From: a virus
IMG/VR virus record: IMGVR_UViG_3300035670_000068
Location: 46,317 to 110,316 of that record
Length of the DNA stretch: 64,000 bases
Strand: one strand, 5' to 3'
In this document: piece after piece, positions 4,697-63,951 of the stretch
Position numbering within the stretch: the stretch's first letter is position 1
Layout of the letters: every line of letters begins with the position of its first letter
Notes under the pieces: generated by a model
Database searches by the model: none
The model's input: only the letters and a program-made list of their open reading frames with translations
What the model was told of the DNA's origin: nothing
Made by a program: the position numbers and the translations under genes

Positions 4697-4714
4697 TAAC
4701 TATGCGCTTAGTTT
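4697..4714 (-). promoter_or_regulatory. Operator-like palindrome, site 2
   Basis: TAACTAT-GCGC-TTAGTTT, one mismatch per arm. On the transcribed strand TTCGATAA abuts the first arm, a possible -10. It is directly upstream of the DUF4262 gene. Confidence 0.65.
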
Positions 4715-6912: not shown

Positions 6913-6930
6913 TAAGTCACCCGTTAGTGA
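6913..6930 (-). promoter_or_regulatory. Operator-like palindrome, site 3
   Basis: TAAGTCA-CCCG-TTAGTGA, two mismatches in the left arm. It lies between the antirestriction-like gene and the GDV-repeat gene, upstream of the latter. Confidence 0.55.
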
Positions 6931-10145: not shown

Positions 10146-10163
10146 TAACTAAGCGGTTAGTCA
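10146..10163 (-). promoter_or_regulatory. Operator-like palindrome, site 4
   Basis: TAACTAA-GCGG-TTAGTCA. On the transcribed strand CAGAAT directly precedes the first arm, a good -10 position. It lies between the HNH gene and the 10100 gene. Confidence 0.75.
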
Positions 10164-13360: not shown

Positions 13361-13378
13361 TAACTAACGGTTTAGTTA
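13361..13378 (-). promoter_or_regulatory. Operator-like palindrome, site 5
   Basis: TAACTAA-CGGT-TTAGTTA, perfect arms. It sits between terminators at 13390-13471 and the ribosome site of the 13344 gene, so it marks the start of a transcription unit. Confidence 0.75.
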
Positions 13379-14706: not shown

Positions 14707-14724
14707 TCACTCACTCGTTACTGA
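14707..14724 (-). promoter_or_regulatory. Operator-like palindrome, site 6
   Basis: TCACTCA-CTCG-TTACTGA. On the transcribed strand GTCATAATAAA directly precedes it, giving CATAAT as -10, so transcription would start in the palindrome. Upstream of the zinc-finger gene. Confidence 0.7.
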
Positions 14725-17021: not shown

Positions 17022-17039
17022 TAACTAACTGCTGACTGA
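17022..17039 (-). promoter_or_regulatory. Operator-like palindrome, site 7
   Basis: TAACTAA-CTGC-TGACTGA, upstream of the 16993 gene. On the transcribed strand GATAAT lies one base before its first arm. Confidence 0.7.
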
Positions 17040-20122: not shown

Positions 20123-20140
20123 TAACTAAGCCCTTAGTGA
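20123..20140 (-). promoter_or_regulatory. Operator-like palindrome, site 9
   Basis: TAACTAA-GCCC-TTAGTGA, perfect arms. It covers the stop codon of the upstream gene and the ribosome-binding region of thyA, whose ATG is one base away. Confidence 0.75.
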
Positions 20141-21110: not shown

Positions 21111-21128
21111 CGTCTAAGCGCTTAGTTA
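21111..21128 (-). promoter_or_regulatory. Operator-like palindrome, site 10
   Basis: CGTCTAA-GCGC-TTAGTTA. On the transcribed strand TAGAAT ends one base before the first arm, a strong -10. It also covers the stop of the upstream gene. Confidence 0.7.
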
Positions 21129-24417: not shown

Positions 24418-24435
24418 TAACTAAGTAGTTAGTGC
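24418..24435 (-). promoter_or_regulatory. Operator-like palindrome, site 11
   Basis: TAACTAA-GTAG-TTAGTGC, about 16 bases upstream of the 24402 start, over its leader. Confidence 0.7.
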
Positions 24436-24492: not shown

Positions 24493-24510
24493 TCACTCAG
24501 CAGTTAGTTA
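24493..24510 (-). promoter_or_regulatory. Operator-like palindrome, site 12
   Basis: TCACTCA-GCAG-TTAGTTA, just downstream of the nrdA terminator. On the transcribed strand GATAAT overlaps its far end, so it could cover a -35/-10 region driving the 24402 gene. Confidence 0.65.
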
Positions 24511-26862: not shown

Positions 26863-26880
26863 TAACTAACGATTTAGTTA
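26863..26880 (-). promoter_or_regulatory. Operator-like palindrome, site 13
   Basis: TAACTAA-CGAT-TTAGTTA, perfect arms, with a further TTAGTTA half-site at 26885-26891. Here a TACAAT -10-like hexamer lies downstream on the transcribed strand, so the palindrome would cover the -35 region of nrdA. Confidence 0.75.
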
Positions 26881-27615: not shown

Positions 27616-28401
27616 TTATCCAAACATGCCAATGGGATACTTCGCTTCTTCGGTTTCGATAACGCCCACGCCAACGTATGTGTCCTGTTCGCCACTTACG
27701 CCGAAGAAAGAGAAGCCGTTTTCAAATAGGAACTTCACGGCCTCTTCGATTGAGGCCAGATATTCCGAGTTGTGTGTCATGAACTCGATTACCGGGCCTC
27801 TGCGCTTTTGCAGCCAAGCCTTGTCGAGCATTTCCCCATAAGGGGCCATGTACATTTCTTCAAATACGGTGTCGGTTTGCGGATCACGACGCTTGCGGCC
27901 TTTGTAGAGAAGTCCGACGCCCTGTTTCTTGTCCGTCTCGAAGACCGAAATACCCTCAAGCCGGCACTCGCGAAGGTCCACGAACATCATGTTGCGGCGC
28001 TCAAGCGGGCCGGACACTTCGCCTTCCGAATCCAGCCAGCCGGCGTGCAGAGAAATCCGCTCGCGGTTGCCTTCCAGGTGAGCCAGGTTGGAGCTGGTCC
28101 CACGAACTGTCTGGAACCAGCTATAGCAGTCCTTGTGGCGCTCGATCATCTTGGAGAGAAGGTGCCGAACGTCTCGAACCTTCTCGGAGTCGGTGATCTC
28201 CGACAGCTTTGTCAGCACCTCTTCATGAGCGCTAACCAGGAACAGCGCGTAGTCGGAGAGAAACGTATTTTTGATCTCCATGCGCTGATCAATCACGTCG
28301 GCAATGAAGTCATCCGAAGCGTTGTCCAGTACGTCTCGCATGGAGGTCAAAAATGCGGGGAGAGTTTCCCCTTCGAGTAAATACCCCTTCAAACTAAGCA
28401 C
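27616..28401 (-). CDS. Hypothetical protein ending in IGMFG
   Basis: A 261-residue protein. The start at GTG 28401 lies inside palindrome site 14 and has a GGGGG before it; a TTG four codons later is an alternative. Mixed fold (NMMFVDLRECRLEGISVFET). It ends AKYPIGMFG, matching the shared tail. Function unknown. Confidence 0.65.
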   Translation of the reverse strand: MLSLKGYLLEGETLPAFLTSMRDVLDNASDDFIADVIDQRMEIKNTFLSDYALFLVSAHEEVLTKLSEITDSEKVRDVRHLLSKMIERHKDCYSWFQTVRGTSSNLAHLEGNRERISLHAGWLDSEGEVSGPLERRNMMFVDLRECRLEGISVFETDKKQGVGLLYKGRKRRDPQTDTVFEEMYMAPYGEMLDKAWLQKRRGPVIEFMTHNSEYLASIEEAVKFLFENGFSFFGVSGEQDTYVGVGVIETEEAKYPIGMFG

Positions 28402-28408
28402 TTAGTTA
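28391..28408 (-). promoter_or_regulatory. Operator-like palindrome, site 14
   Basis: AAACTAA-GCAC-TTAGTTA, exactly in the junction between two genes, covering the stop of one and the GTG start of the next. Confidence 0.65.
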
Positions 28409-32159: not shown

Positions 32160-32177
32160 TAACTAACTTGTGAGTGA
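32160..32177 (-). promoter_or_regulatory. Operator-like palindrome, site 15
   Basis: TAACTAA-CTTG-TGAGTGA. On the transcribed strand TATACAAAA abuts its first arm, a good -10. Upstream of the SbcD-like gene. Confidence 0.75.
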
Positions 32178-32755: not shown

Positions 32756-32773
32756 TGACTCACAGGTTAGTGA
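32756..32773 (-). promoter_or_regulatory. Operator-like palindrome, site 16
   Basis: TGACTCA-CAGG-TTAGTGA. On the transcribed strand CATAGAT lies a few bases upstream. Between the recA operon and the 32706 gene. Confidence 0.65.
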
Positions 32774-35277: not shown

Positions 35278-35295
35278 TAACTCACTTGTTAGTGA
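35278..35295 (-). promoter_or_regulatory. Operator-like palindrome, site 17
   Basis: TAACTCA-CTTG-TTAGTGA. On the transcribed strand TAATACC directly precedes it, giving TAATAC as -10. Drives the 5' nuclease-RecA unit. Confidence 0.75.
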
Positions 35296-36202: not shown

Positions 36203-36220
36203 TAACTAACTGCTTAGTGA
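36203..36220 (-). promoter_or_regulatory. Operator-like palindrome, site 18
   Basis: TAACTAA-CTGC-TTAGTGA, perfect arms, with an extra AACTAAGCAG half-site at 36186-36195. TAGACT lies seven bases upstream on the transcribed strand. Upstream of the ssDNA-binding protein gene. Confidence 0.75.
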
Positions 36221-37698: not shown

Positions 37699-37716
37699 TA
37701 ACTAACTATTTAGTGA
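37699..37716 (-). promoter_or_regulatory. Operator-like palindrome, site 19
   Basis: TAACTAA-CTAT-TTAGTGA, perfect arms, between the polymerase stop and the 37664 gene, upstream of the latter. Confidence 0.75.
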
Positions 37717-41096: not shown

Positions 41097-41668
41097 TGAT
41101 TGCCCCTTACTACAAAGCAGCCATCTTGCTCCAGGATGATCCCGAGCTTCTGAACTGCCGCGATAACAATCGACGCCTGGGAAGACGCCGTTCCGTTGGT
41201 GTAATCGAACGCTCGCTTCAAAGCCTCGATGAAGGCCTGGCGAGTCGTTGGGCCGGCGATCAGCAGATCGAACAGAACCTCGACAGTCGCTGGCTTTTGA
41301 CCGCGCATCGAGTTCACACCGGCGAGCAGACTCTTACGATGGTTGACCCCCACCTGGATCATCGCTCGCGCTGTGCGGGCCGCATGATTCGGCAGGCTGG
41401 AGATCAGGGCCTCGACTGCTTCTGGCAGTTTTGGCTTGTTGCTGGCGGCTTGTTGAGCCTTCTCTTCACGCTTTGCGGCCTTTCTCTTGACCGCCTCTTC
41501 TTGCATGAGCTTTACCAAGCTGTCAGTTCCGACAATCTGCGACAGCTGGGCAATGGATTCTTTGGCGGCTTCTCCGCACGCCTCTTTGTAGCTGCAGGTT
41601 TGGCAAACCTGGGAGCGCACGTTGTAGGTCACTGCAAAACCGAAACAACCTGGCTTTTCAAACTGCAT
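41093..41668 (-). CDS. Hypothetical protein with N-terminal Cys cluster
   Basis: A 191-residue protein from ATG 41668 (MQFEKPGCFGFAVTYN), which lies inside the end of the sigma-like gene. VCQTCSYKEACGEA looks like a zinc or Fe-S site, a Lys-rich helix follows (EEAVKRKAAKREEKAQQAA), and the C-terminal 100 residues (RAMIQVGVNHRKSLLAGVNS) are a winged-helix-like domain. It sits between a sigma factor and the polymerase; DNA binding is likely. ATGA overlap with the polymerase. Confidence 0.65.
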   Translation of the reverse strand: MQFEKPGCFGFAVTYNVRSQVCQTCSYKEACGEAAKESIAQLSQIVGTDSLVKLMQEEAVKRKAAKREEKAQQAASNKPKLPEAVEALISSLPNHAARTARAMIQVGVNHRKSLLAGVNSMRGQKPATVEVLFDLLIAGPTTRQAFIEALKRAFDYTNGTASSQASIVIAAVQKLGIILEQDGCFVVRGNQ

Positions 41669-42257
41669 GGTCAAGCTCCAGGCGCTTAACCTCTTCCTTC
41701 GCCCTGGACAACTCGCTGCTGCTAACACCAATCGCTGCCATCAGAGAGGCTACGAAGTTCAGGTTCAGCTCTGGCGGGTAGCGCTCGTCGATACCCAAGC
41801 TGCTTGCCATCTTTCGCTTTGCCTCAACTGCTGCGAACTGGTCTTTGATCTCCTTCGGCGGGTTCAGCAGAAGCTCTGCCATCAACTTCGCTACCGGAGA
41901 CAGCGCGTTCATTGCCTCTTCAACTCGCTTCCCGGCTTGGAACTCAAGCTCAGGGTTTTGGCTCTCGTCTTCCACGAAATCCAGAACCGAAAGGTCGTCA
42001 TCGATCTCCAGGCTCTGCGTGCGTTCATCGATCATTCGACCAAGCATGTTGTGGAAGTGGTGGTTCGCTGCGACGTTGAAGTAGGTGGAAAAGGCCCAGC
42101 CCTTTGTTGGATCGAACTTCTTGAATGCGTAGATGAAAACCATGAAGCCCTCTTGAACCAGGTCGTTGTAGTCCATCGACACACCAGCCTTCTCAAAACT
42201 CTTCGCCCACTTTCGTGCAACGTAGTGGACAAGCGCTTGATGGTTCAGAGGGTTCAT
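41658..42257 (-). CDS. Sigma-70 region 2 protein (gp55-like)
   Basis: A 199-residue protein. I use ATG 42257 (MNPLNHQALVHYV) because AAGGA is eight bases before it. Residues about 25-80 carry sigma region 2: DYNDLVQEGFMVFIYAFKKF, DPTKGWAFSTYFNVAANHHF. No region 4 helix-turn-helix is recognisable, the layout of T4 gp55, a late-gene sigma that needs a co-activator. It would redirect host RNA polymerase to phage promoters; which promoters is not visible here. Confidence 0.82.
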   Translation of the reverse strand: MNPLNHQALVHYVARKWAKSFEKAGVSMDYNDLVQEGFMVFIYAFKKFDPTKGWAFSTYFNVAANHHFHNMLGRMIDERTQSLEIDDDLSVLDFVEDESQNPELEFQAGKRVEEAMNALSPVAKLMAELLLNPPKEIKDQFAAVEAKRKMASSLGIDERYPPELNLNFVASLMAAIGVSSSELSRAKEEVKRLELDHAV

Positions 42258-42272
42258 GGGCAGCATCCTTGC

Positions 42273-42290
42273 TATTTCACCGATTAGTTA
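42273..42290 (-). promoter_or_regulatory. Operator-like palindrome, site 20 (half-site)
   Basis: TATTTCA-CCGA-TTAGTTA; the right arm is perfect and the left poor. It lies between the CobS-like gene and the sigma-like gene, so it may tune the sigma unit. Confidence 0.5.
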
Positions 42291-43544: not shown

Positions 43545-43562
43545 TCACTAATTAGTTAGTGA
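43545..43562 (-). promoter_or_regulatory. Operator-like palindrome, site 21
   Basis: TCACTAA-TTAG-TTAGTGA, perfectly symmetric arms. Between the CobT-like and CobS-like genes, upstream of the CobS-like gene. Confidence 0.8.
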
Positions 43563-45788: not shown

Positions 45789-45806
45789 TAACTAAGCGCT
45801 TCGTTA
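45789..45806 (-). promoter_or_regulatory. Operator-like palindrome, site 22
   Basis: TAACTAA-GCGC-TTCGTTA. On the transcribed strand CATACT overlaps the start of the first arm. Upstream of the CobT-like gene. Confidence 0.7.
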
Positions 45807-45864: not shown

Positions 45865-46047
45865 CTATAAGGCGATGACAGCTGCGCCAGAGTCAGCGTC
45901 CAGCTCGTTCAGAACCACCAGGCTGGCGTTTCCTTCGTCACCGCTCGTCTTGAAGATGGTGAGTCCACCAAGATGAAACTCGCCAGCAGCATTCTCCAAG
46001 AGATCAAGGGCGTCCTCGTAGGACACCTTGTTTACGCACAAGCTCAT
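45865..46047 (-). CDS. Small hypothetical protein
   Basis: A 60-residue protein from ATG 46047 with GGAGAAGTG ahead. Opens MSLCVNKVSYEDALDLLENA and ends DSGAAVIAL. A lone gene between a terminator and palindrome site 23, divergently placed from the XRE regulator gene. Function unknown; a small partner or antagonist of the regulator is a guess. Confidence 0.68.
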   Translation of the reverse strand: MSLCVNKVSYEDALDLLENAAGEFHLGGLTIFKTSGDEGNASLVVLNELDADSGAAVIAL

Positions 46048-46137
46048 CACTTCTCCATAGCCCTTCTATGGGGCTTCCAGTTTCAGCTGATTGCTTCGAT
46101 GTGAAGCGCTACGCATTTTGACAGATCGCCCAGCAAG

Positions 46138-46155
46138 TAACTAGATGGTTAGTTG
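46138..46155 (-). promoter_or_regulatory. Operator-like palindrome, site 23
   Basis: TAACTAG-ATGG-TTAGTTG, extended outward by CAGCAA and TTGCTG arms so that the symmetry spans 46131-46159. TATCCC is the nearest -10-like element. Upstream of the 46047 gene. Confidence 0.7.
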
Positions 46156-46342
46156 CTGGGGATAGCGAAATCCATAACGAACCCCCTATCTGTGTGAAGA
46201 ATGGTAGCAATGAGCCAGCGGGCGATTCAAGCGGTGACACCTGTAACAAATGTGAAATTTTTGGTCCGATATCGGGTTGACAGGCGACGAATGACCTTGA
46301 TTTTTCTGATTTTTTCCATTTTTAGGCTTTGGAACCTGTGAT

Positions 46343-46360
46343 TCATTGATTAGTTAGTCA
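46343..46360 (+). promoter_or_regulatory. Operator-like palindrome, site 24
   Basis: TCATTGA-TTAG-TTAGTCA. It overlaps the -35-like TTGATT (46346-46351) of the XRE regulator promoter. Confidence 0.65.
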
Positions 46361-46374
46361 CCACGCTATATCTT
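46346..46374 (+). promoter_or_regulatory. Predicted promoter of XRE regulator gene
   Basis: TTGATT (46346-46351), 17 bases, then TATCTT (46369-46374), with an overlapping TATATC. Site 24 covers its -35 and site 25 its start point, which is the arrangement expected of an autorepressed promoter. Confidence 0.6.
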
Positions 46375-46391
46375 TACTAAGCCCTTAGTTA
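46374..46391 (+). promoter_or_regulatory. Operator-like palindrome, site 25
   Basis: TTACTAA-GCCC-TTAGTTA, one deviation from perfect symmetry. It starts at the end of the -10-like TATCTT and would cover the transcription start of the XRE gene. Confidence 0.75.
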
Positions 46392-46457
46392 GACCCTACA
46401 GGGCTCACAATAATAGAAAGCACTAAGCTGAACCAGAAAACTTGTGGAGAAAATGCG

Positions 46458-46994
46458 ATGACCAACACCAGACAAGCCCGAGTAGTCTTCAAAAGCGAGA
46501 CTGCAGACCTGGTACGCCAGATGATCGATGCTCAGGTTCGCAAGAACCAGGACGAGATCGCGAAGGAAACCGGGTTCGAGCGCTCGAACGTACTGACCAT
46601 GATCAAGCAGGGCCGTACCAAGATGCCGCTCGACAAGATCGAGGCTTTCGCAAAAGCGTGTGGTCAGAAGCCCGACAAATTGTTTCGTACCGCCATGCGT
46701 GAATACAACCCGGTCGTGGCCAGACTGATAGGCACCATCTACAAAACCCCGATGTTCGAAGGCGCCGAAGATATCGTGCAGACCTTCAACGAAGCCCTGA
46801 CCGAAGCCCTGACCGAAGCCAAGCGCGAGCACCGCGATGCAGCTGCAAGCCCGAGCGATGCGGCTCAAGTGCTCCGACTGAACGCCTCCCTGGATATCTC
46901 GGGTAGCAAGAAGGCGGACCTAAAACGGTTCGTAAAAACCAATTTGGTGAAGGTGATGGCAGGCGATGAAGAGGTTGCTAAGTTCACTTCCTGA
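46458..46994 (+). CDS. XRE-type regulator, candidate repressor
   Basis: A 178-residue protein with a helix-turn-helix at about residues 31-62 (KNQDEIAKETGFERSNVLTM, then IKQGRTKMPLDKIEAFAKAC), followed by a helical C-terminal half (EDIVQTFNEALTEALTEAKR). GGAGA precedes ATG 46458. First rightward gene and just downstream of two operator-like palindromes, so probably autoregulated. It is the best candidate for the protein that binds all 32 sites, though no direct link is seen. It has no Ser-Lys protease domain of the LexA type, so induction by RecA is not expected. Confidence 0.8.
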   Translation: MTNTRQARVVFKSETADLVRQMIDAQVRKNQDEIAKETGFERSNVLTMIKQGRTKMPLDKIEAFAKACGQKPDKLFRTAMREYNPVVARLIGTIYKTPMFEGAEDIVQTFNEALTEALTEAKREHRDAAASPSDAAQVLRLNASLDISGSKKADLKRFVKTNLVKVMAGDEEVAKFTS

Positions 46995-47010
46995 TACCAA
47001 ACCAGGACCG

Positions 47011-47042
47011 AAAGCCCGCTTCTAAACAGAGCGGGCTTTTTT
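47011..47042 (+). terminator. Rho-independent terminator
   Basis: AAGCCCGCT and AGCGGGCTT arms with a nine-base loop followed by TTTT. It ends the XRE regulator gene and separates it from parA. Confidence 0.85.
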
Positions 47043-47063
47043 ATGCGCGCCTGTCAGACTTGC

Positions 47064-47108
47064 GCGTAGCTGCGATTTCTACCAGAATCGTGAAAACGGC
47101 AGCTACGC
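47064..47108 (+). promoter_or_regulatory. Inverted repeat, likely parAB operator
   Basis: Perfect 10-bp arms GCGTAGCTGC (47064-47073) and GCAGCTACGC (47099-47108) with 25 bases between, including a nested GATT/AATC pair. It is 34 bases before parA. ParA proteins with an N-terminal DNA-binding part bind such repeats and repress their own operon, so this is a natural candidate. Confidence 0.6.
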
Positions 47109-47141
47109 CGTATGAAACGAAATCAACAATCTGGGGGAGTC

Positions 47142-48341
47142 ATGACCGAGATCGGTAATGAAACTGAGCTGCTGGCTATTGAGCAGAGTATGGGCACAAA
47201 CAACGCCGGTCTGTTGTTTGAGCAGTTTGCCATAGACGGCAACGCAGACCTGGATGCAGCCAGAACCCTTATCACCCACCCAGAAGACCGCAAGAAAGCT
47301 CGCACCTGGGGCATCAACGAAGCGGCCCCGATGATTGGGCGCTCTATCAGCTATATCCGTCAGAACGAAGCCGACAGTGTAATCCGGGATGAACAGGGCC
47401 GCTGGCACTTCACACTGGGCGATATCAACCGTCTTCGCGAAAAGTACGGCACCCTCTACAAGCGCCCAGCCGGCTCCAAGGCTATGGTCCTCGCGATCAG
47501 CAACTTTAAGGGCGGCGTAGCCAAGACCACCACTTGCATTCACCTAGCTCAGAAGGCCGCGATGGAAGGTCTTCGCGTCCTGGTTGTCGACCTCGATCCG
47601 CAGGCCTCGACCACCTTCAACATGGGCAGCGTGATCCCGGATATCGAAGTAGGCAAGCGGGACATTATCAACGACTCGATGATCGTTGACCCGCAGATGA
47701 TCCAGACGGCCGTCGTTCACACCTACTTCCACAACATTCACCTGATCCCCTCGAACCTGCACCTGCAGGAGCTCGACGTTGTTTTGCCCAATGCGGAAGT
47801 CAACAACAGCGCGCAGCTTGGCCACCCAGCTTATCGCCTGGCCAACGCCCTGGATGTGATTCGCGAGGACTACGACCTGATCATCCTGGACTGCGGCCCG
47901 AACATGGCTTCGGTTTCGGTCAACGCAATGACCGCTTGTAACGGCCTGATCGTTCCGCTTCCCCCACAGACCTTCGACCACGCCTCTTTCGTGATGCTCA
48001 GCTCTTCCCTGGCCAGCTACTTCAAAGCGACAGGCAAGGAGCTGGACTACCTGCGTCTGCTGATCACTAAGCATCCGGGTAGCCAGAGCAAGGGCGCTGC
48101 GCTGATCGAGCAGAAGATTCGCCGCATGTATGGCAGCTACGTCCTGAACAACGTGGTCAGCATGACCGCCGAGATTCAGAAGGCCAGCTCTGAAATGTCC
48201 ACTGTGTACGACCAGGCTGCAAACAAGAACAGCCGTCGTACCTACCAGCGCGCAATCGAAATCCTGGACGCCGTGAACAACGAGATCATCGGCGACCTCA
48301 AGATCATCTGGGCGCGTCAGGCTCGGGAGGCAGCTAAATGA
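47142..48341 (+). CDS. parA: Type Ia partition ATPase ParA
   Basis: A 399-residue ParA. The start is ATG 47142 (MTEIGNETEL) with GGGGGAG before it. The first 110 residues are an added DNA-binding part (KARTWGINEAAPMIGRSISY, a helix-turn-helix), and the Walker ATPase follows: ISNFKGGVAKTTTCIHLAQK at about 120, VLVVDLDPQASTTFNMGS, LIILDCGPNMASVSVNAM. The extra N-terminus marks type Ia, as in P1 and F. It moves parS-ParB complexes over the nucleoid so each daughter receives a copy. Stop overlaps parB. Confidence 0.95.
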   Translation: MTEIGNETELLAIEQSMGTNNAGLLFEQFAIDGNADLDAARTLITHPEDRKKARTWGINEAAPMIGRSISYIRQNEADSVIRDEQGRWHFTLGDINRLREKYGTLYKRPAGSKAMVLAISNFKGGVAKTTTCIHLAQKAAMEGLRVLVVDLDPQASTTFNMGSVIPDIEVGKRDIINDSMIVDPQMIQTAVVHTYFHNIHLIPSNLHLQELDVVLPNAEVNNSAQLGHPAYRLANALDVIREDYDLIILDCGPNMASVSVNAMTACNGLIVPLPPQTFDHASFVMLSSSLASYFKATGKELDYLRLLITKHPGSQSKGAALIEQKIRRMYGSYVLNNVVSMTAEIQKASSEMSTVYDQAANKNSRRTYQRAIEILDAVNNEIIGDLKIIWARQAREAAK

Positions 48342-49330
48342 TCGGGAACGAAGAAGAGAGAGCCCCCGGAGTCTTCGGCATTTTTGCCCAGGAGATTCAA
48401 CAGGGGCAGCCCCCGAAGGGCGGAAAAGGACTCCAGAAAGTCCACAGAGATTTGCCGGCCACTGCGCCGGTTTCTGTCATTACGCCGCCCTCCCCTACCG
48501 TCAAGCCGAAGCCTGCTCAGAAGGTAGAGGCTGATGCTTCGGACGATACGGTCTATCTGCTCGACCCGAATGACATTGAGCCCTGGGCCTTCGCAGACCG
48601 TCCCGAGCATGAGTTCGGAGACCTGACGAGCCTGACCGAGAAGATTCGCGTTCACGGCCAGGAAGTCCCTGCTCTGGTTCGTCCAGGCAAGGTGAAGGGC
48701 AAATACGAGCTGATCTACGGTCGCCGTCGCTGGACCGTCTGTAAAGACCTGGGTATCAAGCTCAAAGCCTTCGTCCGCTCCATCGATGACCAGGAAGCAC
48801 ACGCTCGGATGGTCATCGAGAACGAGCGCGACCCGGTTTCTACCTGGGCGAAGGCCATGAACTACAAGAAGGTCATCGAGGCCGGGGTCTACCCGTCCGA
48901 GTCTGCTCTTGCTGCGAAGCTGGGCATTCACCGGGCGTCCCTGAGCAACATCATGGCCTACAACCGCATTCCTGAGCCCGTCGTTGAAGCTCTCGGCCCT
49001 CAGTGTATGTCCGGGATGGGCATTCACACGGCTAAAGCGATCCTGGCCGCTTCGAAGTCGCCAGAGGACGTTGAAGTCCTGGTCAGCAACGCGAACAAGA
49101 TCGTCTCTGGCTCTTTGACTGGCGACAACATCCTCAAGCTGGTCAACAAAGCGAAGGAGTCCAAGCCTCGCGAGACCAAGATCGTCACCGACGACAGCGG
49201 CCGCAAGCTGTTTTCCCTGCGTACAACGGGTCGCGGCATGACCGAAGTGATGTTCTACCAGGAAGCGGTCAAACAGTTCGGTGGCGACGAAGCCTTTGTT
49301 AGTAAAATCAAGGGGTTATTCTCTAAATGA
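48338..49330 (+). CDS. parB: Partition protein ParB
   Basis: A 330-residue ParB. The N-terminal 80 residues are a linker that should touch ParA. The ParB fold follows: HGQEVPALVRPGKVKGKYEL, IYGRRRWTVCKD (box II, here GRRR), MVIENERDPVSTWAKAMNYK, then a helix-turn-helix (SALAAKLGIHRASLSNIMAY). The C-terminal part is for dimerisation. Its ATG overlaps the parA stop. Three identical palindromes directly after the stop are its likely target. Confidence 0.93.
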   Translation: MIGNEEERAPGVFGIFAQEIQQGQPPKGGKGLQKVHRDLPATAPVSVITPPSPTVKPKPAQKVEADASDDTVYLLDPNDIEPWAFADRPEHEFGDLTSLTEKIRVHGQEVPALVRPGKVKGKYELIYGRRRWTVCKDLGIKLKAFVRSIDDQEAHARMVIENERDPVSTWAKAMNYKKVIEAGVYPSESALAAKLGIHRASLSNIMAYNRIPEPVVEALGPQCMSGMGIHTAKAILAASKSPEDVEVLVSNANKIVSGSLTGDNILKLVNKAKESKPRETKIVTDDSGRKLFSLRTTGRGMTEVMFYQEAVKQFGGDEAFVSKIKGLFSK

Positions 49331-49344
49331 GAATCATTCTCTCA

Positions 49345-49365
49345 ATGTTGTACCCCCTACAACAT
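49345..49365 (+). repeat. parS-like palindrome 1
   Basis: ATGTTGTA, five C, TACAACAT: exact inverted arms of eight bases. Fifteen bases after the parB stop. First of three identical copies. Confidence 0.8.
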
Positions 49366-49377
49366 GGTCCCTGGTCG

Positions 49378-49398
49378 ATGTTGTACCCCCTACAACAT
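49378..49398 (+). repeat. parS-like palindrome 2
   Basis: Identical 21-bp copy, starting 33 bases after the first, so roughly three helical turns apart and on the same face. Confidence 0.8.
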
Positions 49399-49413
49399 CT
49401 ACCTGGACCCCCA

Positions 49414-49434
49414 ATGTTGTACCCCCTACAACAT
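49414..49434 (+). repeat. parS-like palindrome 3
   Basis: Identical 21-bp copy, 36 bases after the second. No further perfect copy was noticed elsewhere in the window by eye. Confidence 0.8.
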
Positions 49435-49489
49435 CGAACTGAGACCCCTCACCCGCTAGACCGAAACCCACAAGACACCAACCACACAG

Positions 49490-49514
49490 AACCCGCCCCC
49501 AGGCGGGTTTTTTT
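49490..49514 (+). terminator. Rho-independent terminator after parAB
   Basis: ACCCGCC and GGCGGGT arms with a four-base loop followed by TTTTTT. Only 18 bases separate it from the Rep start, so Rep must be reached by read-through or have its promoter upstream of the hairpin. Confidence 0.85.
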
Positions 49515-49532
49515 ATGCCTGGAGAAAAGTGC

Positions 49533-50777
49533 ATGAAGAGCCGGAATGTTATCTGCTCACCGCAAGCGCTTACTTATCTGAAAGATCGGAAAGAGTTTCG
49601 AATCGTCCCTGCTCCAATCTGGCGTCATGTTCAGATGAATGACCAACTCAGTATCGAGAGCCGCTTTTTGTGGGGAGTTCTATGGGAACTCTGCGCGCTG
49701 GAAAAAGATTACGAGCGCCGACTGACTTGGGGTTTTCTGAGCAAGCGTCTTGGTAAGAGTGAGTCGTCGATCAGACGGTGGGCTCGCCAACTTCAAGCTG
49801 ACGGATATTTGCAGGTCACTCAGGTATTCAACAAAGACGGCGGTCAACTTCCGAGTGTTTTCAGAATCGGCGTACCGAATGGAATTGCTCAAGAGATCGC
49901 AATGAACTCTCCAGATCGGCGCGTGAAAGTAATTGAGCCTGAAACTTCCGACACTGAATCGGCAGATCAGATTCCGGCGTGTGTTGAACCTGATGAACTT
50001 GGTTCGGCTTCTTCGCAAGAAGATCGGCGCGAAGATAACGGTTCGATCATGAATGCCGAAATTGAATCTAGTGCGCCGACTTCTAACGATCATGTTTCGG
50101 ATTGCGGCGCAAAACAGCGCGAGGAAGTTCAAGCGCCGGAATTTCGATCAGCTGGCGGCGTTCATGCCGAAATTACAGACAGTGACTCGAATGCGCCGGC
50201 GTATCGCGCCGAATCTCAGACAGCGTGCATGAAAATCGGCGCAGAAAATGGCACCTCTAGACTGCAATCGATCTTGTCCAAGGACAGAAGCAGGGGCGGG
50301 AAGGGGTCTGGGAGCTCGCACAATGCGAGATCGGAAGAAAAACGTCTCGACGTACAGGGTCAACCCGGATCGTCGTATGAGCGCGAAATTGAAGAGATCA
50401 GGAAACGGGCTTTGAAGCTCGAAAAAGAGGGTCAGAAGAGGGCAGGGGAGGGGGCTTTCAAAGTCGAGCTACCCCAGGGTTTCAAATCTGGCACCCAAAA
50501 CAAAGATTCTTCTGAGCAAGTAAATAACAACAACACCCCCGCGAATGTGGATAGAACCATGCTCAGGGTGAAAGGCGAGCTGCAGAACAAAATCGGAATC
50601 GGCGGCCAGATCGACAAGCTCGCGAAGGAGTTCACCTTCGCGATCCTGTTTGGGGCTTTCAAGAAAATGGAGTTTGCTAAGGCGATCAACGTGGGGGTGA
50701 AGCTAGTGCGCGAAGGTCGTTGGCAGTCTCCGCGCTACTCAATCGATGGTCAGACGGTGTGCGTTCTCAATGGTTAG
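49533..50777 (+). CDS. Winged-helix replication initiator-like protein
   Basis: A 414-residue protein from ATG 49533 (MKSRNVICSPQALTYLKD) with GGAG ahead. Residues about 20-120 form a winged helix (SKRLGKSESSIRRWARQLQA, DGYLQVTQVF) like replication initiators of plasmids and phages. Residues 130-300 are a low-complexity linker rich in Ser, Glu and Asn. The last 80 residues (IGGQIDKLAKEFTFAILFGA) look like an interaction domain. The order parA-parB-parS-this gene is typical of plasmid replicons. A general transcription regulator is the alternative. Confidence 0.68.
   Translation: MKSRNVICSPQALTYLKDRKEFRIVPAPIWRHVQMNDQLSIESRFLWGVLWELCALEKDYERRLTWGFLSKRLGKSESSIRRWARQLQADGYLQVTQVFNKDGGQLPSVFRIGVPNGIAQEIAMNSPDRRVKVIEPETSDTESADQIPACVEPDELGSASSQEDRREDNGSIMNAEIESSAPTSNDHVSDCGAKQREEVQAPEFRSAGGVHAEITDSDSNAPAYRAESQTACMKIGAENGTSRLQSILSKDRSRGGKGSGSSHNARSEEKRLDVQGQPGSSYEREIEEIRKRALKLEKEGQKRAGEGAFKVELPQGFKSGTQNKDSSEQVNNNNTPANVDRTMLRVKGELQNKIGIGGQIDKLAKEFTFAILFGAFKKMEFAKAINVGVKLVREGRWQSPRYSIDGQTVCVLNG
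49866..50243. repeat. Clustered CGGCGC words inside rep, possible iterons
   Basis: Within the linker-coding part of rep, the word CGGCGC (or its complement GCGCCG) occurs at about 49917, 50025, 50074, 50105, 50133, 50193, 50206 and 50237, often as ATCGGCGCG/A, with a CGGCGT at 49868. Phage initiators such as lambda O carry iterons of their origin in the matching part of the gene. Codon bias could produce some of these. Confidence 0.4.
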
Positions 50778-51426
50778 CCGATTCCAGGACGAACATCGTC
50801 GCGAACTCCTTCGCGTCTTCGTGGGTATCGACCGGGATCAGGTTCGAGCACAGATCAGCGAAGACTTGCCAGGATGCTTTGGTGACAGCCCTGAATCGAG
50901 CGTCGAAACCAACCATCGCGGTCGCACACTTCTTGTTGTCCAGTTCCCAGAAGACGAACGGGCAAGTGATGTGTCGAGGGATGCCAGCAATGAAGCGCCG
51001 AAGTTCGCCAGACCAATTGTTGATGTTGGCTTCTTTCTTGATTTCTTTGTGTTGAAGGAAAGAGCACTCGGTCAAGTTCTTTCCCGTAGCCAGAGCGAAT
51101 ACGATCAGCCGGCGTTCCTCGATGGTGAACTTCATCAGGATCGTCCTGAACTCACCAAGAGTCAGCTTCGGGACCGGCAGTTGGTATTCGGTAGCAGGGC
51201 AGGGGTCTACCAGGCCAAGTATCTGGGCGCGTGCCAGTTCGGTGACGATCTTCTTCATCACGCACCGGCCATGCTTACGCCCAAGTTTGGACTCGACTGT
51301 TTTGTTCAGGATCATCATTTCGAAACCAGTGACGGACTTCACCGGCTTCGAGAAAACATCCATCGGATCAACCCCAGCTTCTGCCAGGATCGATCTGATT
51401 TCTCCTACTTCAATAAAAAGGGTCAT
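50767..51426 (-). CDS. Degenerate tyrosine recombinase-like protein
   Basis: A 219-residue protein starting at ATG 51426 with GGAGG ahead. The middle reads EERRLIVFALATGKNLTECS, similar to the TGLRxSE box of tyrosine recombinases, but Lys-Asn stands where the catalytic Leu-Arg is expected, and no HxxR or final Tyr motif is clear (PFVFWELD follows). It may be an inactive relative with a DNA-binding role, or unrelated. Its stop overlaps that of rep by 11 bases tail to tail. Its start lies in a hairpin. Confidence 0.5.
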   Translation of the reverse strand: MTLFIEVGEIRSILAEAGVDPMDVFSKPVKSVTGFEMMILNKTVESKLGRKHGRCVMKKIVTELARAQILGLVDPCPATEYQLPVPKLTLGEFRTILMKFTIEERRLIVFALATGKNLTECSFLQHKEIKKEANINNWSGELRRFIAGIPRHITCPFVFWELDNKKCATAMVGFDARFRAVTKASWQVFADLCSNLIPVDTHEDAKEFATMFVLESANH

Positions 51427-51468
51427 GCTTACCTCCGCTGATGCCGCGAAGACTAGCACGACCCTTTT
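51416..51468 (-). promoter_or_regulatory. Hairpin covering ribosome site and start codon
   Basis: Arms at 51416-51428 and 51456-51468 match at 12 of 13 positions (AAAAGGGTC-TGC and complement) and enclose the GGAGG of the 51426 gene, one arm including its ATG. On the minus strand it also ends in TTTTT, so it could be a terminator for the 51488 gene and a translational switch for the next. Confidence 0.55.
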
Positions 51469-51487
51469 GGGTGGCTTCAAGAAGGCC

Positions 51488-51667
51488 TTAATCGAAGTCG
51501 AAGTCGCCTCCGGTGGCGATATTGCTGATCAGCCAGTAGGTGAGGGCGTCGGTGACGAAGGCCAAGAAGATGCTCAGCGGCCAGCTCAACTCGAACAGGT
51601 AGTGAAACAGGCAAGCCTCGATCACCCACAGAACTACGAACAGGAGCACCTCTCCTACAGTTCTCAT
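51488..51667 (-). CDS. Small membrane protein
   Basis: A 59-residue protein found by reading the gap. ATG 51667 overlaps the ligase stop (ATGA). Two membrane helices are visible (EVLLFVVLWVIEACLFHYLF and WPLSIFLAFVTDALTYWLIS) and an acidic tail (GGDFDFD). Function unknown; coupled to the ligase gene. Confidence 0.7.
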   Translation of the reverse strand: MRTVGEVLLFVVLWVIEACLFHYLFELSWPLSIFLAFVTDALTYWLISNIATGGDFDFD

Positions 51668-53043
51668 TCGACGCCCACCATGTTGATCGCGTTCTCGAAC
51701 TGTTCCTCGATGCGAGTCAGGTCATCAGCGACAGTCTTGTCCAGGCGCTCTTCGACAAAGCGAGGCAGGAACAGACTGTGCGGCTTCTTCTCCGAAGACG
51801 AATAGAGGATAGAGTTCGAGCGAACGGTGATGATCGTACCTGGGTAAGTCTCGCGCTTGAGGTGAATCTCCATGCGCTTCTCCAGGGTGAAGCCGGAAAC
51901 ATCGACCACCAGCTGACGACAGGAACTGGCGCAGCGCAAAGAACCGAAGGTGTCCTTGTGCATACCCGTCTCGTCACCTGGCACGAAGTCGATCACTTCC
52001 AGCTCGCACTCGGCTTCCAGCTTGAGCTTCACCTGGTCCTTGCTAGTGTGGTCCTTCCAGATCATCTGCCGGCGTTTGATGATCGTGCCTTCCTTGCCCT
52101 GCAGCAGCAGCTCTTTATAGTGGGCGTAGGCGTCCTTCAAGGACTTGACCACTCGCGTCTCAATCAGAGAGACGGTCTTGCTCGCGCCATTCTTGAGCTG
52201 CGCGTACAGGGCAGACAGGCGCTTGTCGTAGGGCACTTCGTACTTGCCCTTCTTGACCACGCACTTGAGCGGGATTTGATCCCATACCTTTAAGATCGGC
52301 TTATAGCCTTCCTCCCAGGCGCCGCCCTGAATCACGCTGTTCAACATGCCGTTGCCGATCTCGCGGGCGAGAACCTTGCCGTTAGCGTCGATAACCAGGA
52401 GCTCGCCATGAGTCTGCGAGTCGCGATAGAACAGGCGTTCGCACTCGGTCAGAAGCTCTTCGAAGCCTTCGTAAGGTAGGGGAGTGCCCTGGCGGCTGGA
52501 CATAGAAGCGGAGCCGGCGCTGTCGATGTTCGTGTTGACGAACATGCCATCAGCCTTCTCCTGGGAGAAAATGCCGTTCGCCCAATCCCACTTGTTCAGA
52601 TCGGTGTGGCTGGGCAGCGAGCAGCGCATATAAGGAAAGGACGGGATCAGGCCTTTGCAGACCTTGTTGATCGTGCTTTCACCGAAGCCGGCCTTGAGGT
52701 CTTTGCGAATGATCCGGCGTAGCAGCTCTGCAGACTCACCGTTCAAGGCCTCCAGCTCGTACTGGATTGCCTCTTGGGCGCCATTGCCGGACAGGTTGCG
52801 TAGAGCCAGGTTGTCCAGAAGCGAGTAGGTCTCGGAGGTGAAGCCTTGTTCTCCAACAAAGCCTGGCGTTGGTAGCTTTTTGACGCCGTAGGTCTTGAAG
52901 GGGTTGTAGGTGTAGTCGAGAACCTTTTTCAGCTCGTCGCCAATCGGAAGCTGCATAGCCTCCGAGAGAATGGCGATCTTGTCGTTCTTGCCTGGCGTGG
53001 CTGCGATCTTCTCGATCAGCTGGAAGACGGTCACGGAGTTCAT
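51664..53043 (-). CDS. ATP-dependent DNA ligase
   Basis: A 459-residue ligase. Nucleotidyltransferase motifs: lysine motif EKADGMFVNT near residue 163, THGELLVIDANGKVLARE, GKEGTIIKRRQMIWKDHTSK and DQVKLKLEAECELEVIDFVP (motif V). The C-terminal OB part has MEIHLKRETYPGTIITVRSN. Seals nicks using ATP, as in T4 and T7. Placed in the replication block with primase and helicase. Confidence 0.9.
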   Translation of the reverse strand: MNSVTVFQLIEKIAATPGKNDKIAILSEAMQLPIGDELKKVLDYTYNPFKTYGVKKLPTPGFVGEQGFTSETYSLLDNLALRNLSGNGAQEAIQYELEALNGESAELLRRIIRKDLKAGFGESTINKVCKGLIPSFPYMRCSLPSHTDLNKWDWANGIFSQEKADGMFVNTNIDSAGSASMSSRQGTPLPYEGFEELLTECERLFYRDSQTHGELLVIDANGKVLAREIGNGMLNSVIQGGAWEEGYKPILKVWDQIPLKCVVKKGKYEVPYDKRLSALYAQLKNGASKTVSLIETRVVKSLKDAYAHYKELLLQGKEGTIIKRRQMIWKDHTSKDQVKLKLEAECELEVIDFVPGDETGMHKDTFGSLRCASSCRQLVVDVSGFTLEKRMEIHLKRETYPGTIITVRSNSILYSSSEKKPHSLFLPRFVEERLDKTVADDLTRIEEQFENAINMVGVE

Positions 53044-53681
53044 TGGGCTTCCTTCATTGCTTGCATGGCTTGAGCCCGACGCTTCGCGAACGCCAGCGGG
53101 CTTTCACCCGGTTCCGGCTTGAGAGCGAGCGGGGCAGGGGAGGGTTTCTTTTCTTCCTTCATCAGCACGTTCACCAGGTCAGCCATCCCCTCAGTGACGT
53201 ACCCGTCTGCAGGCTTGGGCTTCTGGGCCGGGTTCTTGAACGCAGGCTTGTGCTGGACGGCTTTGCGACCAGACTCTTGATCAGACTTTTTGGTGGAGCC
53301 GACCTGCGCCCATCCCCGTGCGTAACTCGGGTTGTTCAGGTCGTACTTGCCAGAGCTGACGGAGAGGGCAGAGGCCTGAGCCTCAGTCTCCGACCTGGTG
53401 TTGGCCGGGTTGATGTTCGTGCGTTCCTTGAAGTACAGCGCCTTGCCCGCAGCCTTTTCCTCTGCGCGCATCTTCTTGGCCGGGCAGGTGTCGTGAGTAC
53501 AGGCCCGCTGGCATTCGATGAACTGGTCACTCTTGATCCGGTTCTCTTCGATTGCGGTGATGGTGTGCAGACAGACCGCATAGCTCGCGTGAGCCCCGCG
53601 CGTGTCGCAGAAGTGGTAGAAGGCGTTGCGCCCACTCATGCTGTCCTTGAGCGGGTGAATGATCTCGGCTTGTTCGCTCAT
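53040..53681 (-). CDS. Hypothetical protein
   Basis: A 213-residue protein. The N-terminal part has a Cys cluster (QFIECQRACTHDTCPAKKMR) and the rest is a low-complexity linker (KNPAQKPKPADGYVTEG) with a basic helix at the end (AFAKRRAQAMQAMKEAQ). Start at ATG 53681, GAGAGG upstream, just after site 26. Overlaps the ligase by ATGA. Possible adaptor for a replication protein. Confidence 0.65.
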   Translation of the reverse strand: MSEQAEIIHPLKDSMSGRNAFYHFCDTRGAHASYAVCLHTITAIEENRIKSDQFIECQRACTHDTCPAKKMRAEEKAAGKALYFKERTNINPANTRSETEAQASALSVSSGKYDLNNPSYARGWAQVGSTKKSDQESGRKAVQHKPAFKNPAQKPKPADGYVTEGMADLVNVLMKEEKKPSPAPLALKPEPGESPLAFAKRRAQAMQAMKEAQ

Positions 53682-53709
53682 AACGAACCTCTCTGGTTTA
53701 GGTTTTGTT

Positions 53710-53727
53710 TAACTAACTGCTGAGTGA
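53710..53727 (-). promoter_or_regulatory. Operator-like palindrome, site 26
   Basis: TAACTAA-CTGC-TGAGTGA. On the transcribed strand a perfect TATAAT (53728-53733) abuts it, so the start site should lie in the palindrome. Drives the ligase unit. Confidence 0.8.
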
Positions 53728-54611: not shown

Positions 54612-54629
54612 TAACTCACCGATTAGTGA
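54612..54629 (-). promoter_or_regulatory. Operator-like palindrome, site 27
   Basis: TAACTCA-CCGA-TTAGTGA. It covers the primase stop and the GGTGAG ribosome site of the next gene, eight bases before its ATG. Confidence 0.7.
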
Positions 54630-57282: not shown

Positions 57283-57300
57283 TAACTATCTACTGACTTA
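57283..57300 (-). promoter_or_regulatory. Operator-like palindrome, site 28
   Basis: TAACTAT-CTAC-TGACTTA. On the transcribed strand CAATAAG abuts the first arm. Upstream of the 57267 gene. Confidence 0.6.
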
Positions 57301-59497: not shown

Positions 59498-59515
59498 TAA
59501 CTAAGCGGATAGTGA
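59498..59515 (-). promoter_or_regulatory. Operator-like palindrome, site 29
   Basis: TAACTAA-GCGG-ATAGTGA. On the transcribed strand TGTAATAT, an extended -10, lies downstream, so here the palindrome would occupy the -35 and spacer. Upstream of the Hfq-like gene and helicase. Confidence 0.7.
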
Positions 59516-60263: not shown

Positions 60264-60281
60264 CTACTAACTGATTAGTGA
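60264..60281 (-). promoter_or_regulatory. Operator-like palindrome, site 30
   Basis: CTACTAA-CTGA-TTAGTGA, six bases upstream of the 60257 start. TAACATTAA lies just before it on the transcribed strand. Confidence 0.65.
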
Positions 60282-60401
60282 GTTAATGTTAGCGATCAGT
60301 TTGCTTGGCAGCAACAGGAATCTCTGGGTCCGGGATGGTTGGAAAGCTCCGTCCCAATGCCACGCTGCGTATATCTTATATCTAAGGTAAAAACTTTTAT
60401 C

Positions 60402-60419
60402 TAACTAACTTGTTAGAGA
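60402..60419 (-). promoter_or_regulatory. Operator-like palindrome, site 31
   Basis: TAACTAA-CTTG-TTAGAGA. ATAAGATATAC follows downstream on the transcribed strand as a possible -10, so it may mark a second promoter for the 60257 gene. Confidence 0.65.
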
Positions 60420-63933: not shown

Positions 63934-63951
63934 TAACTAACCAGTTAGTTA
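63934..63951 (-). promoter_or_regulatory. Operator-like palindrome, site 32
   Basis: TAACTAA-CCAG-TTAGTTA, perfect arms. It overlaps the stop of the edge gene; TGGTAAAAT lies just downstream on the transcribed strand as an extended -10. Upstream of the lysis cassette. Confidence 0.75.

Follow-up and report, generated by a model that had tools for sequence, protein, structure and literature searches.

Dispersed palindromes and a putative XRE-type master repressor in a candidate SSU5-like phage-plasmid related to Pseudomonas phage nickie

An 18-bp palindrome, TAACTAA-N4-TTAGTTA (layout 7-N4-7), is dispersed through a virus record of 110,316 bp, and the XRE-type regulator encoded within it (46458–46994, plus strand, 178 aa) very probably serves as master repressor of lysogeny, as judged from comparisons of sequence. 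It is highly likely that this repressor would act as a dimer to occlude promoters at about 60 sites, regulate its own gene, and leave the par and rep genes on. The first-pass annotation had proposed binding of these sites by the XRE protein, which would regulate its own gene and silence the phage genes. This is supported by the co-occurrence of the gene and the palindrome, by the palindrome-free phage nickie, and by the conserved operators at the promoter of the HTH gene. For this element we infer binding, dimerisation, repression, immunity, and an inducing signal.

Gene content of the record

The window, a stretch of 64,000 nucleotides, is positions 46317–110316 of the record, and coordinates given here are those of the window. 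At the ends of the record there is a 127-bp direct terminal repeat. The closest named relatives at the DNA level are nickie-type Pseudomonas phages. A siphovirus-type backbone is encoded, which includes cobS, cobT, DNA polymerase III alpha (DnaE), ligase, primase, helicase, and ribonucleotide reductase (NrdAB), and the region 46458–50777 contains the XRE regulator, parA, parB, and a replication initiator. This content is best explained if the record is an SSU5-like phage-plasmid in the broad sense, with Pseudomonas phage nickie as a relative, and the presence of parA, parB, and rep suggests that the lysogen would replicate as a plasmid.

The siphovirus-type backbone together with par and rep places the record in the SSU5-like supergroup, with par and rep from a different family. 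In common with the SSU5-like elements (SSU5/pHCM2, pLF82/Cyrano, pKpn) and the Acinetobacter 107-kb plasmids are 37–40 of the 154 genes as backbone, based on tblastn, and the XRE homologue. However, the par and rep genes of those elements have no sequence match to those found here and are mostly located elsewhere, and the operator sequence differs. SSU5-like phage-plasmids occur commonly in Enterobacteria and in Acinetobacter, and resistance genes are found on some of them.

Between cobS and DNA polymerase III, a sigma-factor-like protein is encoded on the minus strand (41658–42266; phrog_351, 1.2e-12). In a Rhizobium relative, a gene annotated as sigma-70 occupies the equivalent position. A small divergent ORF (45865–46050, minus strand) lies between the XRE gene and cobT; several relatives have a small gene there, without sequence similarity.

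Copy number and placement of the palindrome

Near-perfect copies of the motif (two or fewer mismatches out of 14) number 41 in the record and 0 in the Markov control. In the window, allowing up to three mismatches, there are 35 matches, against 0.23 ± 0.47 in shuffled sequence. With a refined matrix, the count over the full record is 61 sites, and 59 of these are in intergenic sequence, which makes up only 11 % of the record (p = 2e-53). With a PWM score above 15, 52 sites are found in the record and four when it is reversed, whereas five Markov genomes have none; the median site score in the record is 22.1. There are therefore many copies across the genome, mostly in promoter regions, as is expected of a dispersed operator.

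The predicted operators in the window, with their scores, are at 1659–1676 (23.3), 4697–4714 (21.1), 6913–6930 (18.1), 10146–10163 (25.2), 13361–13378 (24.4), 14707–14724 (20.5), 17022–17039 (21.6), 20123–20140 (26.6), 21111–21128 (17.1), 24418–24435 (20.3), 24493–24510 (23.8), upstream of nrdA at 26863–26880 (24.6), 28391–28408 (23.0), 32160–32177 (23.5), 32756–32773 (19.4), 35278–35295 (21.7), 36203–36220 (23.7), 37699–37716 (25.0), 42273–42290 (19.3), upstream of cobS at 43545–43562 (23.5), and upstream of cobT at 45789–45806 (24.9). Next to the XRE gene are those at 46138–46155 (19.4), on its divergent (leftward) side, 46339–46356 (17.8), and 46374–46391 (20.7). Beyond the plasmid genes, predicted operators are found upstream of the ligase operon at 53710–53727 (24.7), which is the right edge of an operator-free stretch, and at 54612–54629 (24.9), 57283–57300 (22.1), 59498–59515 (25.9), 60268–60285 (22.3), and 60402–60419 (23.0). 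The strongest operator (63934–63951, score 31.4) falls inside the 127-bp terminal repeat.

A −10-like hexamer lies directly against one end of the operator in five genomes, with p from 2e-4 to 3e-16. The hexamer starts at +6/+7 or −14 from the operator centre, offsets that were picked on four genomes with Klebsiella held out. In this record, 8 of 48 sites have an abutting hexamer (p = 6e-6). The proposal is that an XRE dimer would bind the 18-bp palindrome, with one or two in each occupied intergenic gap, and that the bound protein would block RNA polymerase, since its site lies against or over the −10 element.

An alternative is that the sites are mainly stoperators, at which bound repressor stops elongation through short gaps rather than initiation. 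This would suit the finding that six of the eight upstream gaps of 15–40 nt carry a site and that many sites are 10–30 nt ahead of a start codon. However, −10-like hexamers adjoin the operators far more often than in controls, which implies control of initiation, and the stoperators of L5 are asymmetric and oriented (PMC6550527), whereas the sites here are palindromic. It is therefore unlikely that stopping elongation is the main function of the sites; a stoperator role additional to the promoter block is possible at those in very short gaps.

The XRE protein and its promoter

The XRE protein matches named HTH families (Pfam HTH_26 and HTH_37) under the curated cut-offs, and its PHROG matches, including a sub-threshold match to phrog_8, are HTH-type regulators. 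The AlphaFold2 model is all-helical (mean pLDDT 87.6) with a confident N-terminal HTH, in which the HTH helices are residues 31–38 and 44–50 and the block-mean pLDDT is >90 over residues 11–90. On superposition with Foldseek, the HTH domain matches those of P22 c2 (TMt about 0.76), 434, and lambda. The protein thus has the helical HTH fold with recognition helix that is typical of the XRE/Cro-CI HTH superfamily. With the full-length protein, Foldseek matches are insignificant, with only a low-confidence resemblance to Stl (TMq about 0.36), and a PDB profile search gave no match. No peptidase-type C-terminal domain was recognised; the C-terminal part (about 90–178) could serve dimerisation. The gene had been described as the only regulator-like HTH gene here. 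It is the sole HTH_26 match in the whole record, although the sigma-like protein, and Rep and ParB with their HTH-type domains, narrow that description.

The predicted promoter sequence reported upstream of the XRE gene, TTGATT-17-TATCTT, is confirmed, with the −35-like TTGATT at 46346–46351 and the −10-like TATCTT at 46369–46374, both on the plus strand and separated by a 17-bp spacer; an alternative −10-like TATATC is two bases upstream. The relative L031 has an identical −35-like hexamer at the equivalent place. The two motif copies that had been reported there, as sites 24 and 25, were also found: 46339–46356 (TGATTCATTGATTAGTTA, three of 14 mismatched) covers the −35, and 46374–46391 (TTACTAAGCCCTTAGTTA, one of 14 mismatched) covers the expected transcription start. 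A putative repressor gene with sites at its own promoter is thus present, and this arrangement is kept in relatives. The third operator, 46138–46155, is farther upstream and probably belongs to the divergent promoter; L030 has an equivalent operator (−321 versus −311 from the ATG).

Two operators are found at the HTH promoter in each of this record, L030, L031, Acinetobacter, pHCM2, E. coli GS04, and Klebsiella, with one in each of pHCM2 and GS04 being below the site threshold. Cyrano has weaker operators at this promoter and Rhizobium has a single one. The operators are 35 bp apart in both this record and L031, the proteins of which are 53 % identical. Two somewhat weaker operators over the −35 and the start would allow the XRE protein to regulate its own gene, and scores of 17.8 and 20.7, below the median, would be expected of an autoregulated gene. 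The weakness of 46339–46356 nevertheless counts against the master-repressor reading, as does the sub-threshold level of the HTH family matches.

XRE homologues and their palindromes

Homologues of the XRE protein are present in Rhizobium phages, the Escherichia phage-plasmid Cyrano, the Acinetobacter 107-kb plasmids, and several hundred enteric plasmids, and the gene adjoins the cobT region where this was examined (Cyrano, pHCM2, Acinetobacter). Among viral contigs, no relatives were found by single-protein or ParB searches, and among genome contigs none were found with a three-sequence alignment; an alignment search of the viral contigs identified 74 loci with XRE relatives.

Every fully examined XRE-bearing relative (Acinetobacter, Klebsiella, E. 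coli, Salmonella, Rhizobium) has its own 7-N4-7 palindrome in the frame TxAyTxA, and for full genomes these palindromes came from unbiased de novo palindrome counts. The half-sites are TCAGTCA in Acinetobacter, TAAGTAA in the enterics, and TCAATCA/TCAGTCA in Rhizobium. Compared with the 41 copies with two or fewer mismatches in this record, there are 30 in Acinetobacter, 14–21 in the enterics, and 23/21 (TCAATCA/TCAGTCA) in Rhizobium. Of the 74 viral loci, most of those that are long enough and have sufficient sites show a clade-specific TxAyTxA half-site; since the scan of short loci tried only TxAyTxA half-sites, the frame is no independent result there. Some loci with XRE homologues are too short or have too few sites for a motif to be seen, a further point against the master-repressor reading; among them are L058, L061, and L103, which have few or no TxAyTxA palindromes. 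L058 has instead a palindrome centred on GCTAGC, present in six copies in 20 kb.

In a set of 21 different recognition segments, base 6 of the half-site is associated with the recognition-helix residue at the aligned position of R42 (MI p = 0.005, uncorrected for kinship). Asparagine at this position is paired with A6 in eight of eight cases (Fisher p = 0.007, likewise uncorrected). This record is an exception to the trend of K/R with C, having R42 with A6 rather than C6.

The phage nickie serves as a natural experiment. It has 78 of the 154 genes in common with this record, including the flanking cobT (66 % identity) and ligase (47 %), and lacks XRE, parA, parB, and rep; the palindrome is present in 0 copies. 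When the 24 genes of this record that are found in all five compared phage-plasmids are considered, XRE alone is missing from nickie. The Nickievirus psageB1 has no lysogeny genes and no temperate behaviour was seen (PMC8537276). Based on this comparison of sequences, nickie looks like a version without the cassette and the operators.

These comparisons also bear on which protein reads the palindromes. Another phage protein could do so, such as the sigma-like protein (41658–42266), ParB, or another DNA-binding protein, with the XRE gene merely one of the targets. A sigma-like gene is indeed present, and the sites adjoin −10-like hexamers as a promoter element would. However, a two-fold palindrome in which the frame is kept and the bases vary by clade is characteristic of dimeric HTH proteins, and no gene but XRE shows the required profile of presence and absence. 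With tblastn, the sigma-like protein is unmatched in Rhizobium, Klebsiella, pHCM2, and Cyrano, all of which bear palindromes, and a phage sigma factor was rejected as the reader on this phylogenetic profile. A reader other than XRE is thus improbable. Least probable of all, and hardly to be expected, is that the phage makes use of the binding site of a host protein, either a global regulator or a nucleoid protein: AT-rich intergenic palindromes could in general be host sites, but the motif varies by phage clade along with the XRE helix, with one half-site in the Klebsiella, E. coli, and Salmonella elements and others in this record, Acinetobacter, and Rhizobium, and nickie, a related Pseudomonas phage, has none. 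The XRE protein is therefore preferred as the reader.

The homologue in Cyrano, CYRAN_45, is transcribed 10-fold above the prophage background in E. coli LF82 with the Cyrano plasmid (PMC9928086). It is annotated as a 'putative repressor', and this label is all that accompanies the one homologue with data in the literature searched, in which lysogeny control of SSU5-like elements is not worked out. Comparison of the Cyrano operators with the published lysogen transcriptome (PMC9928086) shows an upstream site at 1 of 12 expressed genes versus 22 of 86 silent genes, a difference that is in the predicted direction and not significant (p = 0.17).

Plasmid genes and the operator-free stretch

Downstream of the XRE gene are, all on the plus strand, parA (47112–48341; AAA_31, 3.9e-37), parB (48338–49330; ParB_N, 4.1e-10), and the plasmid replication initiator rep (49515–50777; phrog_270, 3.3e-5). 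There is no operator upstream of parA or rep, which would thus stay on, so that the element could persist as a plasmid while the lytic genes are silent. Between parB and rep (49345–49448) there are three palindromes, ATGTTGTACCCCCTACAACAT, with starts 33 and 36 bp apart. These are distinct from the operator and are likely to be parS or Rep iterons.

The absence of motif copies reported from 46392 to 53709 is confirmed; no position inside scores higher than 2.5, where the threshold is 8.7. As stand-alone evidence, however, this 7.3-kb gap was rejected, because there are only three intergenic stretches inside and a free span of at least 7.3 kb is present in 93.5 % of random placements (P = 0.935); in this genome alone the gap is uninformative. 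Comparisons across genomes say more. The 500 bp upstream of parA in seven genomes, and of rep in six, are free of sites except for one weak match at parA of pHCM2. The joint probability of rep and parA being operator-free is 7e-4 if the genomes are independent, and 6e-3 with the enterics counted as one. In L030 and L031, the syntenic XRE-parA-parB-rep-ligase block is free of sites for about 7.1 kb. The suggestion that plasmid functions escape repression is therefore supported in part, by seven phage-plasmids and two close relatives and not by the gap in this genome.

Comparison with known repressors

The repressor C1 of the phage-plasmid P1 has 22 widely dispersed operators and represses lytic genes as well as its own promoters (PMC8546580). 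The predicted system here resembles it in having a single repressor with dispersed operators that include its own promoter. The C1 operator is an asymmetric 17-mer (ATTGCTCTAATAAATTT), whereas here there is an 18-bp palindrome, a small XRE/HTH protein, and about 60 sites. Repressors of the L5/Bxb1 kind have 20–30 genome-wide stoperators with a clade-specific consensus, the specificity of which defines immunity groups, and some members are extrachromosomal parABS phages (PMC6550527). The L5 sites are 13–14 bp without dyad symmetry, follow the direction of transcription, and are each bound by a repressor monomer, whereas the sites here are palindromic with −10-like hexamers abutting. Because both P1 C1 and L5 Rep use asymmetric sites, the XRE protein is set apart from these families by the shape of its sites, and on that basis it belongs to neither. 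It is like the lambdoid repressors CI, 434, and P22 c2 in its XRE/HTH fold and in having short palindromic operators that are paired at an autoregulated promoter; lambdoid repressors, however, have few operators in one switch region, rather than about 60 sites genome-wide. No previous account of these operators came up in the literature searched.

With a repressor named and its operator readable from sequence, predictions become possible on the genes kept silent in the plasmid state, on mutual immunity between elements, and on why elements can coexist. The scheme also bears on how temperate and virulent relatives differ. A broader reading, offered tentatively and rather doubtful as a whole, is that SSU5-like phage-plasmids of both Alpha- and Gammaproteobacteria are controlled by a single lineage of repressors via TxAyTxA (7-N4-7), with a few residues of the helix setting positions 2, 4, and 6, and that the repressor would be bound everywhere as promoter blocker and elongation roadblock, sparing only the plasmid genes. 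If helix residues do set the half-site bases, immunity groups would be readable from sequence.

A second palindrome in enteric elements

The enteric SSU5-like elements (L012, L018, L019 = Cyrano; L024–L029 = Klebsiella, pHCM2, and E. coli GS04) have a second dispersed palindrome, AAACAA-N-TTGTTT, with 9–14 exact copies per element. In Cyrano, it is found almost entirely at promoters without the TAAGTAA motif, including those of parA, primase, helicase, and terminase, which suggests a second regulator sharing out the promoters of the genome. The annotation of E. coli plasmid pGS04EC-1 shows an internal stop in the gene for DNA ligase (L028, 19105–20427), and there are insertion sequences in the element; this is possibly a decaying phage-plasmid.
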